Assembly: GCA_017625065.1 (NCBI GenBank)
Contig: JAGALS010000068.1
Location: forward strand, 1 to 36,546
DNA: 36,546 nt
From: Clostridia bacterium
GTDB taxonomy: Bacteria; Bacillota; Clostridia; Oscillospirales; CAG-272
Direction of reading: 5' to 3'
Position numbers and translations under genes: made by a program. Each line of letters opens with the position of its first letter. Position 1 is the stretch's first letter. Below, one piece after another: positions 20,282 through 21,279 of this stretch. The notes beneath the pieces were generated by a model. It ran no database searches. It was not told the origin of the DNA and worked only from the letters and a program-made list of their open reading frames with translations.

Positions 20282-20350
20282 ATTGTATCAAAAAAGTTGA
20301 ACCCACTACTGACATCTTTAACCGCACTACTGACATCTTTGTGTCAGTAA
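20282..20350 (-). promoter_or_regulatory. Late promoter with tandem activator sites
   Basis: On the minus strand an extended -10 (TGATACAAT, 20282-20290) has no fair -35. Instead, two exact 16-bp direct repeats CACTACTGACATCTTT (plus-strand reading, 20304-20319 and 20325-20340) are spaced 21 bp, two helical turns, and overlap the -35 zone. The outer copy continues into an inverted TACTGACA...TGTCAGTA (to about 20349). This is the arrangement of an activator-dependent promoter. The start would be near 20275, about 30 nt before the terS start. The obvious candidate activator is the gene at 20932-21279. Confidence 0.65.
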
Positions 20351-20389: not shown

Positions 20390-20410
20390 AGAAAATATTC
20401 AAAAATTCCG

Positions 20411-20439
20411 TTGACAAAAAAGTTCCAAAGATGTATAAT
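20411..20439 (+). promoter_or_regulatory. Consensus sigma-A promoter of the small toxin-like cassette
   Basis: TTGACA, 17-bp spacer, TATAAT: both hexamers match the consensus. It points away from the late operon, toward the 32-aa peptide gene. The start of transcription should be near 20446, giving a leader of about 145 nt. Confidence 0.9.
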
Positions 20440-20544
20440 ATTGTCGTGGAAATCCACCGTTCTTCCCTGTTTTGCTTTTTTGCGAACGGTTGACGGTAAA
20501 AAAGACGGTTGCCTGCCCTCCCGCGAGTGCGGAAAGGACGGCAA

Positions 20545-20589
20545 ATGTATAGCCCTCGCGGGAAATTCTATTTCACGAAAGGAGGGTAA
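20545..20589 (+). CDS. Leader peptide ORF (14 aa) coupled to the toxin-like peptide
   Basis: ATG with AAAGGA six to seven bases upstream; reads MYSPRGKFYFTKGG and stops at TAA, which lies inside the ribosome site of the next gene, two bases before its ATG. Part of it lies in the long stem TCCCGCGAG/CTCGCGGGA (20519-20527 with 20555-20563). Short coupled leader ORFs are known from hok/mok-type toxin mRNAs. Whether this one is translated is not known. Confidence 0.45.
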   Translation: MYSPRGKFYFTKGG

Positions 20590-20591
20590 GC

Positions 20592-20690
20592 ATGATAATT
20601 TTTTCTGTATTTGTTGGTATTTTTACTATAACAAGTGCAATCGTAGGCATTATGTCCTTCGCTTGCTACTTACACGACAGAAAAAAATGA
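20592..20690 (+). CDS. 32-aa single-span hydrophobic peptide, type I toxin candidate
   Basis: ATG after AAAGGAGGGTAAGC. The peptide is one membrane segment (residues 2-27, MIIFSVFVGIFTITSAIVGI and on) with a short charged tail HDRKK. Size, topology and charged C-terminus are as in type I toxins (Fst, TxpA and relatives), which damage membranes when free of antisense control. The leader contains CCCTCC (20516-20521), able to mask the GGAGGG ribosome site, and a 9-bp stem. The stop codon lies inside a perfect bidirectional terminator shared with a convergent RNA. It is on the opposite strand to the late genes around it. No family match is claimed. Confidence 0.65.
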   Translation: MIIFSVFVGIFTITSAIVGIMSFACYLHDRKK

Positions 20691-20721
20691 GCCGTCTGTA
20701 GCAGAGACGGCTCATTTTTTT
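20681..20721. terminator. Perfect bidirectional terminator shared by two convergent RNAs
   Basis: AAAAAAATGAGCCGTCT (20681-20697) and AGACGGCTCATTTTTTT (20705-20721) pair over 17 bp with a 7-base loop. Each strand gives a GC stem followed by a U-run. It ends both the peptide mRNA and the opposing RNA. Confidence 0.95.
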
Positions 20722-20779
20722 GAGGAGTAACTCCTCACTTTATGTAGACTGACCTGTGGTAACCGTCTTGGGTTTCCAC
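20683..20779 (-). ncRNA. Putative antisense antitoxin RNA, about 95 nt
   Basis: A consensus minus-strand promoter (20786-20815) would start a transcript near 20779 that ends at the shared terminator. No ORF with a ribosome site lies in it. It is complementary to the 3' end of the peptide mRNA through the terminator region. It carries its own hairpin GAGGAGT/ACTCCTC (20722-20736), whose CTCCT could pair with the toxin ribosome site AGGAG. AAGACGGTT occurs in both RNAs. Inference from layout only. Confidence 0.55.
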
Positions 20780-20785
20780 ACTCTT

Positions 20786-20815
20786 ATTATACACTCTGTT
20801 GACATTTTTTGTCAA
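20786..20815 (-). promoter_or_regulatory. Consensus promoter of the antisense RNA
   Basis: On the minus strand TTGACA (20810-20815), 18-bp spacer, TATAAT (20786-20791). The -35 lies in an inverted repeat GTTGACA-TTTTTT-TGTCAAC. It faces the toxin-like gene. Confidence 0.85.
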
Positions 20816-20899
20816 CCTCTTTTTGATAATTTTTTGAAATATATTTATAGTGCATATTCGTTATATGCGCTTTTAAGACATAATACATCCATTTTGATG

Positions 20900-20930
20900 A
20901 AAAGGTTCCGTTAAAAAAACGGAACCTTTT
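20900..20930. terminator. Terminator after the regulator gene
   Basis: AAAAGGTTCCGTT and AACGGAACCTTTT form a 13-bp stem ending in a U-run on both strands. It lies two bases past the stop of the gene at 20932 and ends the early operon. Confidence 0.85.
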
Positions 20931-20931
20931 C

Positions 20932-21279
20932 TTATTTCGATCGTAGCCCTCGTACCCTTCCAAAAAGATCTCTTGCCACACGGAGCCAGCGATAGACCAT
21001 CCTTGTTGATACAGGATACCCCGCCGCAAGCGCCTCCACCCGTGCGCTGATGCTGCCCCGCTCGATTTCTTGCCGCGGCGCCACAAAATACACGGCACGC
21101 ACTGCGGCGATCACCTCCTCCTTGCCTTGGAGCGCAAGGATCCGCAGCACCTCGCATACAGCTTTGAGATCCGCAGCGGTAGCGCCCTCTCCTCCGATCT
21201 CTCGCTCCGCGGGACACCCCATACGGGCATAGAGCCGAAAGGCCTCGGTCGCATAATCACGGATCAGGTCCTTTTTCAT
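20932..21279 (-). CDS. Putative late-gene transcription activator (ArpU/RinA-like), 115 aa
   Basis: Start at ATG with GAGGAGGGTGAGGGT upstream. The N-terminal part is helical (DYATEAFRLYARMG), followed by a central helix pair (DLKAVCEVLRILALQ) and a C-terminal helix-turn-helix-like stretch (PVSTRMVYRWLRVARDLFGR). Small proteins of this size at the end of the early operon, just before terminase, are often ArpU/RinA-type activators of late transcription. The tandem sites at the late promoter (20304-20350) fit that role. Identification rests on position and fold-like pattern. Confidence 0.55.
   Translation of the reverse strand: MKKDLIRDYATEAFRLYARMGCPAEREIGGEGATAADLKAVCEVLRILALQGKEEVIAAVRAVYFVAPRQEIERGSISARVEALAAGYPVSTRMVYRWLRVARDLFGRVRGLRSK

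Follow-up and report, generated by a model that had tools for sequence, protein, structure and literature searches.

A probable phage-borne type I toxin-antitoxin cassette with a par-like layout and a new peptide in a Clostridia prophage

The DNA analysed here (the window, 36,546 nucleotides) is an entire 36.5-kb contig (G000:C63) of a 2.0-Mb draft genome of a Clostridia bacterium in 97 contigs. It carries phage genes, among them a P22-like portal match, an integrase and repressor-like proteins, and at positions 20411-20815 a compact cassette with the putative toxin on the + strand. We propose that this cassette is probably a type I toxin-antitoxin (TA) module that the phage gained as a small self-contained unit. 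Its sequence suggests a module that is par-like in layout, encodes a new peptide family and has an antitoxin hairpin signature in common with a larger group of cassettes in the host family. A sequence-only reading of the window had proposed a type I TA-like arrangement, and that proposal is now supported by a cassette in a sister prophage, by two homologues (L270 and L272) and by the recurrence of the facing-promoter layout around peptides of 26-33 amino acids (aa). The core features are:

20411-20439, + strand: toxin promoter TTGACA-17-TATAAT, 12/12 (also 12/12 in L270 and L272)
20446-20723, + strand: predicted toxin mRNA of about 278 nt, from GUGGAAAUCC to the terminator, as deduced from promoter and terminator
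20592-20690, + strand: 32-aa single-span peptide MIIFSVFVGIFTITSAIVGIMSFACYLHDRKK, the predicted toxin, with its ATG at 20592
20681-20721, both strands: perfect 17-bp bidirectional terminator with a 7-nt loop, holding the toxin stop
20680-20779, - strand: predicted antisense (antitoxin) RNA of about 95 nt with three hairpins
20756-20779, - strand: antitoxin hairpin 1, GUGG.AACC[CAAGAC]GGUU.CCAC, with the signature ACC-N3-GAC-GGUUGC at one mismatch
20721-20737, - strand: antitoxin hairpin 2, a stem found in the window, L270 and L272 with unrelated sequences
20815-20786, - strand: antitoxin promoter TTGACA-18-TATAAT, 12/12 (12/12 in L272, 11/12 in L270)

The two facing consensus promoters described from sequence were borne out. 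Both match at 12/12, and the whole window holds three promoters of this quality (20411+, 20815- and 29667+), whereas 30 shuffles averaged 0.03 and never gave more than 1. The single bidirectional terminator was confirmed as well: its arms (20681-20697 and 20705-20721) are 17/17 complementary (z = -8.1), and the toxin stop TGA (20688-20690) lies within the left arm. Sense and antisense RNAs would overlap in the terminator alone, over about 41 nt. The antitoxin -35 element sits within an inverted repeat, GTTGACATTTTTTGTCAAC.

The single-span membrane peptide was also confirmed, and its ribosome site is good. The 32-aa peptide is the sole + strand open reading frame (ORF) of 20-60 aa in the window with a Shine-Dalgarno (SD) match of 5/6 or better and a hydropathy over 19 residues of 2.0 or more (its best value is 2.42). 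Applied to both strands, this filter returned three ORFs, against a mean of 0.1 and a maximum of 1 in 20 shuffles. Pfam gave no match to the peptide at E up to 10, and it contains no proline and so no PXXXG motif. Peptide searches covered overlapping sets of 196 relatives, 394 genomes of the order, 390 of the family and 196 of the class and, beyond the window's own genome, gave matches only in G098 and G795. We dismissed the G098 match, which lies inside a 155-aa ORF, as chance; the G795 match (L270) was accepted because of the cassette that surrounds it, as its E-value of 0.0056 is weak alone. No credible match was found among phages and plasmids. Degenerate peptide patterns were also compared with IMG/VR: FVGIFTIT matched 11 times, in frames of 22-40 aa where the detector described below finds no cassette, MSFACYLHD not at all, and MYITLEQL five times, with no cassette among these either.

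The layout itself is rare. A detector was built to pick out a + promoter and a facing promoter, each matching at 10/12 or better, together with a bidirectional terminator stem of 9 bp or more, all at set distances. It found six distinct cassettes in 211 sequences (2,763,211 bases, including duplicates of some loci) and none in eight dinucleotide-shuffled sets. All six contain an ORF of 26-33 aa behind a ribosome site. Four of these loci had been chosen via their own peptides, one (L041) via the neighbouring large terminase gene, and one is the window; layout played no part in the choice except for the window, which the sequence-only reading had picked. Earlier versions of the detector recovered one cassette (loop up to 10 nt, no mismatch) and three (loop up to 16 nt, one mismatch). 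Known loci had been viewed before the loop limit was raised to 22 nt, so finding them again is not independent evidence; the absence of cassettes from shuffled sets was obtained with this widened version. A second set of 50 loci (212,346 bases) gave 24 detector rows, of which four repeat loci of the first set and L245 is counted twice. We give next to no weight to the idea that the cassette is a chance coincidence or an assembly artefact: the genome is indeed a draft in 97 contigs, but no shuffled set held a cassette, and homologues in two other records refute this explanation.

These homologues were reached from different directions. L270 comes from a genome (G795) in the same class but a different family, and the weak peptide match led to it. 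Its DNA has a 12/12 promoter, the RNA start GTGGAAATC, which is the 5′ end of the predicted toxin mRNA in the window, L270 and L272 alike, as well as GGACGGTTGCC, GAAAGGAGG, the antisense block GTGGAAACCAAAGACGGTTGCCAC and a terminator over the stop. In the peptide frame, 15/31 residues are identical to the window, and the SD, frame, stop, hydrophobicity (best 19-residue value 2.18) and basic C-terminus are all retained. The antisense match in L270 is independent because the peptide search ignored the antisense side; the leader was likewise unused in finding this locus. The second homologue, L271/L272 (IMGVR_UViG_3300013947_000564, a 50.5-kb viral contig), is the sole IMG/VR match to GTGGAAANCNNNGACGGTTNCCAC. 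It was found by its antisense hairpin, and its promoter, leader, leader ORF and small peptide gene played no part in finding it. L272 has 12/12 promoters on both sides and a 12-aa leader ORF that stops 4 nt ahead of the ATG. A further pattern, GGAAACCNAAGACGGTTNCC, matched seven contigs and was rejected, as the six besides L271 are chance matches with no promoter nearby. Both homologues keep the facing promoters, leader, SDs, shared terminator and antisense RNA. L270 neighbours a phage gene for a minor tail protein (PF10145), and genes of the Bro-N/KilAC antirepressor and IrrE types lie close by; L272 adjoins a 1479-aa gene with an NlpC/P60 domain. Thus, all three copies lie in phage or prophage DNA, at different sites.

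The predicted antisense RNAs of the window, L270 and L272 share one fold of three hairpins (z = -6.2, -6.1 and -3.9). The first is conserved in sequence across the three, and the third is the terminator. We considered whether hairpin 2 could act as an anti-SD, since GAGGAGUUACUCCUC could pair with the SD, and rejected this because the L270 and L272 sequences are unrelated there. No direct-repeat family (0/4) links the toxin start to the antisense 5′ region. Rfam at its gathering score gave no match, including in 18 loci, and a search of the open-licence literature found no paper on these antitoxin RNAs.

Upstream of the toxin frame, the predicted mRNA carries a leader with the following features:

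20446-20457, + strand: hairpin at the extreme 5′ end, GUGG-AAAU-CCAC, which we liken to the 5′-UH of par
20453-20493, + strand: leader stem CCGUU/AACGG, kept in the three homologues (alignment columns 47-53/82-88)
20502-20513, + strand: block AAGACGGTTGCC, nearly repeated in the antisense RNA
20508-20545, + strand: predicted hairpin over the leader-ORF SD, -15.8 kcal/mol
20545-20589, + strand: leader ORF of 14 aa, MYSPRGKFYFTKGG, with its stop 2 nt ahead of the toxin ATG
20552-20587, + strand: predicted hairpin over the toxin SD, -11.3 kcal/mol, an alternative pairing in the leader-only fold

The 5′-end helix is GUGGAAAUCCAC in the window, and the L270 sequence differs there. The SD regions of the leader ORF (20532-20544) and of the toxin (20577-20589) form an 85% direct repeat. 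A leader hairpin over the toxin SD, by which par/Fst systems are recognized, is present in predicted folds, but these disagree on its form. In the whole-mRNA fold and the three-sequence consensus, the toxin SD lies in a local hairpin with CCCUC of 20552-20563, and the centroid of the leader alone shows the CCCTCC-GGAGGG type of pairing proposed from sequence; in the minimum-energy fold of the leader by itself, the toxin SD has a different partner. Folding surpassed shuffles for the whole mRNA (z = -3.5) and the antisense RNA, largely because of the terminator, but not for the leader alone (z = -0.86; 41/200 shuffles were at least as stable). The consensus for the three mRNAs, from an alignment that starts at the -35 element so that 6/78 pairs fall within the promoter, places hairpins over both the leader-ORF SD and the toxin SD. 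Compensatory double changes occur in 11/78 consensus pairs (three in the toxin-SD hairpin, three in the terminator, one in the leader stem, the others long-range or coding); with three modelled sequences, these are suggestive at most. The idea of a mok-like coupled leader ORF is plausible, and L272 has one of 12 aa, but in L270 the leader frame runs past the toxin start.

By eye, the leader/antitoxin block matches one terminator arm: GGCGGTT with AACCGCC in most cassettes of the larger group described below, AGACGG with CCGTCT in the window and similarly in L270, and AGATGG with CCATCT in L272. By analogy with hok, such a match could let the mRNA close 5′ to 3′.

Several observations weigh against a toxin-antitoxin function. 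The L270 toxin frame (1490-1510), which keeps register and stop as conservation in relatives would have it, has no ATG, GTG or TTG at its start; it would begin at AUA or AUU, or else this copy would be inactive. Its antisense promoter is 11/12 and lies ~13 nt farther upstream than in the window, leaving a gap to the block of about 19 nt instead of 6, so the RNA start may differ. Differences between the window and L270 fall 13/8/14 by codon position, which is mildly coding-like. The L272 peptide (MIYLAAISQICNIVRFVCSIIRYIWSNRKK...) lacks a stop ahead of the terminator and continues through it to 47 aa (1442-1585), and its best hydropathy of 1.67 is below the 2.0 cut-off. The cassette is also rare, with the peptide in one other genome and the antisense hairpin in one viral contig. 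In the mRNA consensus, the RNAalifold covariation term is unfavourable overall (+3.56 kcal/mol), many pairs being broken in one sequence. Finally, duplexes between antisense RNA and leader outside the terminator were not above shuffles in 7/7 cassettes (p 0.08-0.78), leaving a mechanism at the ribosome site unsupported, and complementary matches in 16 pairs were unremarkable (window p = 0.88; lowest p = 0.02, in L229).

Some of these points would suit an RNA-only regulatory locus, with an antisense RNA directed at other targets, or at the late region of the phage, and a peptide frame that is either incidental or in decay. Across the three homologues, the RNAs appear by eye better conserved than the peptide, in keeping with the missing ATG of L270 and with the missing stop and lower hydrophobicity of L272. 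We nonetheless hold this explanation to be very unlikely: every feature of the peptide gene listed above as shared by the window and L270 has been kept, and a small peptide follows an SD in 24/26 of the detector rows that carry the antitoxin signature (below), the other two being L245 read from both sides, where the filter found no peptide.

The cassette lies in a variable segment and is bordered as follows:

20283-19663, - strand: presumed small terminase gene, flanking the cassette
21279-20932, - strand: 115-aa gene, the end of which flanks the cassette on the other side
20390-20939: variable segment of about 550 bp, where relatives with a 92% identical large terminase have ~26 bp

The closest named relatives by large terminase are the metagenome-assembled genomes Oscillospiraceae bacterium SIG624 and SIG629 (92%). 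L011-L014 and L040, with large terminases at 92%, lack the cassette, and a short spacer joins the flanking genes. For the refuting outcome named in the sequence-only reading, a peptide frame not conserved in relatives, the picture is thus mixed: these relatives lack the cassette altogether, L270 retains frame and stop without an ATG, and L272 has an ATG but no stop ahead of the terminator. In alignment, the minus-strand terminator (20389-20368) corresponds to the one that ends the operon in the relatives, so the cassette sits between the last operon gene and its terminator.

Related phages differ at precisely this site. L041 (G006, same genus, large terminase 74%) holds another cassette there, with promoters of 11/12 and 11/12, a leader, the peptide MFITLEQLLLIGTFLIALAGYWKSHK, a shared terminator and an antisense RNA. 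L042 (G008) has an other-strand gene of up to 201 aa with hydrophobic stretches (L042 6510-7301). Of the loci numbered 11-23 and 40-210, 10 yielded both flanking genes: six were empty, two held the L041 cassette and two the L042 gene. The G006 prophage contig also carries a second cassette of the L041 type (L057 1302-1703), which lies immediately upstream of an integrase gene 92% identical to the window's, in divergent orientation to it.

Two further observations concern the neighbourhood. Upstream of the presumed small terminase gene (window 20300-20350) lie, by eye, two direct copies of ACTACTGACATCTTT with an inverted TGTCAGTA; the same slots hold ACTACTCTCAACTT twice with TTGAGAGTA in L040, and ACTACTGCAGACTT twice with CTGCAGTA in L041. 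These repeats match within one phage and differ between phages, as in a packaging or activator site that evolves with its protein. On the other side, window 20823-20931 contains a third + promoter (10/12), 8 nt past the antitoxin promoter, followed by a terminator (20899-20931), and could possibly encode an orphan RNA of about 75 nt.

The L041-type peptide opened up a larger group. It has matches in 7/196 relatives at E up to 0.05, G006 included, and its alignment matches 64/395 host-family genomes at the same threshold, the window's own genome being without a match; some of the weakest, situated in long frames, probably arose by chance. Pfam has no match for the L041 peptide itself. Six of its relatives compared with Hol_Tox (PF16935) comprised one above the cut-off (24.0 versus 23.3), one equal to it, three below and one unmatched. 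Of 30 loci fetched for this peptide (L222-L251), 21 have a detector row and nine have none, and among the first eight (L050-L057), five have one; L051/L224 lacks a + promoter of 9/12 and L052/L234 a facing promoter of 9/12. L223 and L226 each have an adjacent second cassette with a different peptide (VDFITWQDLLQVALLVFAILSVFYNKKR and VDNVTWNDLIQIAFLVFAILSCFYNKKR), forming tandem type I TA-like units. These Hol_Tox-like cassettes resemble that of the window in layout, near-consensus promoters, a stop in or beside the terminator stem, a basic C-terminus and the antitoxin 5′ signature. They differ in a peptide without detectable homology, in the terminator (AACCGCC/GGCGGTT) and in an antitoxin that is about 85 nt long and forms a single hairpin ahead of the terminator.

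Small membrane peptides serve superinfection-exclusion or membrane-signalling roles, and the window peptide might instead be phage cargo of that kind made by the lysogen, with the antisense RNA only setting its level. The site does hold cargo, as the L042 gene with its hydrophobic stretches and the empty L040 illustrate. We consider this unlikely, since facing near-consensus promoters and a shared terminator recur around peptides near Hol_Tox, and an exclusion gene needs no such control.

What connects the window to the larger group is the start of the antitoxin RNA. Alignments of the group comprised 17 antitoxin RNAs (A3) and 15 leaders (A4), and most of the antitoxins start with a block like ACCGATGACGGTTGCTTCC. 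The signature ACCNNNGACGGTTGC (ACC-N3-GAC-GGUUGC), scored over the first 45 nt past the antitoxin -10 element, occurs with at most three mismatches in 26/27 detector rows and with at most one in 16, although one of the 26 (L245, - strand) is a mirror reading of a cassette already counted. Its offset is 12-17 in 25/26 matching rows; the window has one mismatch and an offset of 12. The matching rows span peptides without detectable similarity, and the sole miss, L274, has no peptide. Among all promoters of at least 11/12 in the loci, a background that includes cassettes, duplicates and toxin-side promoters, 59 have up to three mismatches and 243 have 4-8, so a three-mismatch match is not strong alone. 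The pattern ACCNNNGACGGTTNC is found in 36/280 loci: seven window copies, 18 loci of larger-group peptides, five of the two homologues and six chance matches (fetched by a similar pattern). The pattern ACCNANGACGGTTRC, chosen after both groups had been viewed, occurs once in the window, at the antisense start, where 0 are expected.

A covariance model of Hol_Tox-type antitoxins (R1) was rejected as proof of homology because its match is terminator-driven: the window scored 24.7 bits on the sense strand and 16.1 on the antisense strand, and an unrelated terminator scored 21.7. In the complete genome that contains the window, R1 found 10 weak matches (best E 0.016). With a weight matrix built on the antitoxin 5′ block, the window scored 5.8 bits and members 22.6-38.3, a weak result that ranks 11 of about 73,000 positions. 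Same-sense similarity between leader and antitoxin reached p up to 0.002 in 13/15 Hol_Tox-type cassettes (0.04 and 0.15 in the others); for the window, p was 0.11. Profile comparison did not support homology between the window peptide and the Hol_Tox-like ones (hhalign probability 1%; hidden Markov model score -0.8, which 44% of shuffles reach), and the Hol_Tox (PF16935) model does not match it. Since the peptides are non-homologous by profile and R1 leaves the link unproven, we judge a common origin of RNA control across both groups to be likely only, on the strength of the shared signature. A broader proposal, that the window, sister-phage and other host-family cassettes form one type I TA superfamily, is in our view evenly balanced. 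Such a superfamily would be defined by an antitoxin RNA whose 5′ hairpin is partly repeated in the mRNA leader, with exchangeable peptides (MIIFSVF-, MYITLEQL- and VDFITWQDL-type) and swaps of whole cassettes beside terminase genes.

Among known systems, the cassette can be compared with par of pAD1 (Fst/RNA II, Enterococcus faecalis). As described in one account, par shares facing promoters, a bidirectional terminator with complementary loops, an SD-masking leader hairpin, a membrane toxin of about 33 aa and a short antisense RNA (PMC7472228); the hairpin at the mRNA 5′ end of the window may correspond to that of par. The window cassette differs in having no direct repeats that pair at the SD, in a longer antisense RNA (about 95 nt, against about 40 in pAD1) that forms two hairpins ahead of the terminator, and in a leader ORF. 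The parallel drawn from sequence is thus upheld for layout but not for membership, given a peptide with neither PXXXG nor a Pfam hit. TxpA/RatA and BsrG/SR4 of Bacillus subtilis are described as having convergent 3′-overlapping RNAs, a membrane toxin and a mobile-element location (PMC4147584); the likeness to TxpA/RatA is only a general one, and the overlaps given for these two systems, about 75 and 120 nt, contrast with the roughly 41 nt of terminator shared here. With hok/sok of plasmid R1, the likeness is a leader ORF coupled to toxin translation (mok), although the antisense RNA is described there as pairing over the leader ORF (PMC4147584) and is encoded at the 3′ end in the window. In Clostridioides difficile, prophage type I TAs with toxins of 34-53 aa have been demonstrated by experiment, and the CD0977.1 antitoxin promoter is described as strong (PMC6563280, PMC7699646). 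By description, CD0977.1-RCd11 and its relatives resemble the window cassette in prophage location, a small hydrophobic toxin with a lysine-rich end and an antisense RNA with its own promoter, and they are reported to help keep the prophage (PMC7699646); some C. difficile antitoxins differ in being riboswitch-linked.

A mechanism consistent with these features can be outlined. Both RNAs would be made in the lysogen. In par of pAD1, as summarized in the source, first contact is at the terminator loops, pairing near the start codon follows, and a leader hairpin delays translation (PMC7472228). For the window cassette, the antisense RNA would meet the mRNA first at the fully complementary terminator loops GUAGCAG/CUGCUAC, and the 3′-end duplex that then forms would block translation or trigger decay. 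The leader may hold the toxin silent until translation of the leader ORF opens the hairpin over the toxin SD. If the prophage were lost or its transcription disturbed, the less stable antisense RNA would vanish, the peptide would be made and inserted in the membrane, and cell growth would stop, favouring cells that retain the prophage.

Searches for type I toxins usually rely on similarity to other toxins and so miss those with a new peptide. A signature in the antitoxin RNA that links dissimilar peptides may help to detect systems of this kind in gut Clostridia that have not been cultured, and in their phages. The site beside the terminase genes is also a natural experiment, as related phages hold a different cassette, another gene or nothing there, so that a role in prophage maintenance is directly testable.
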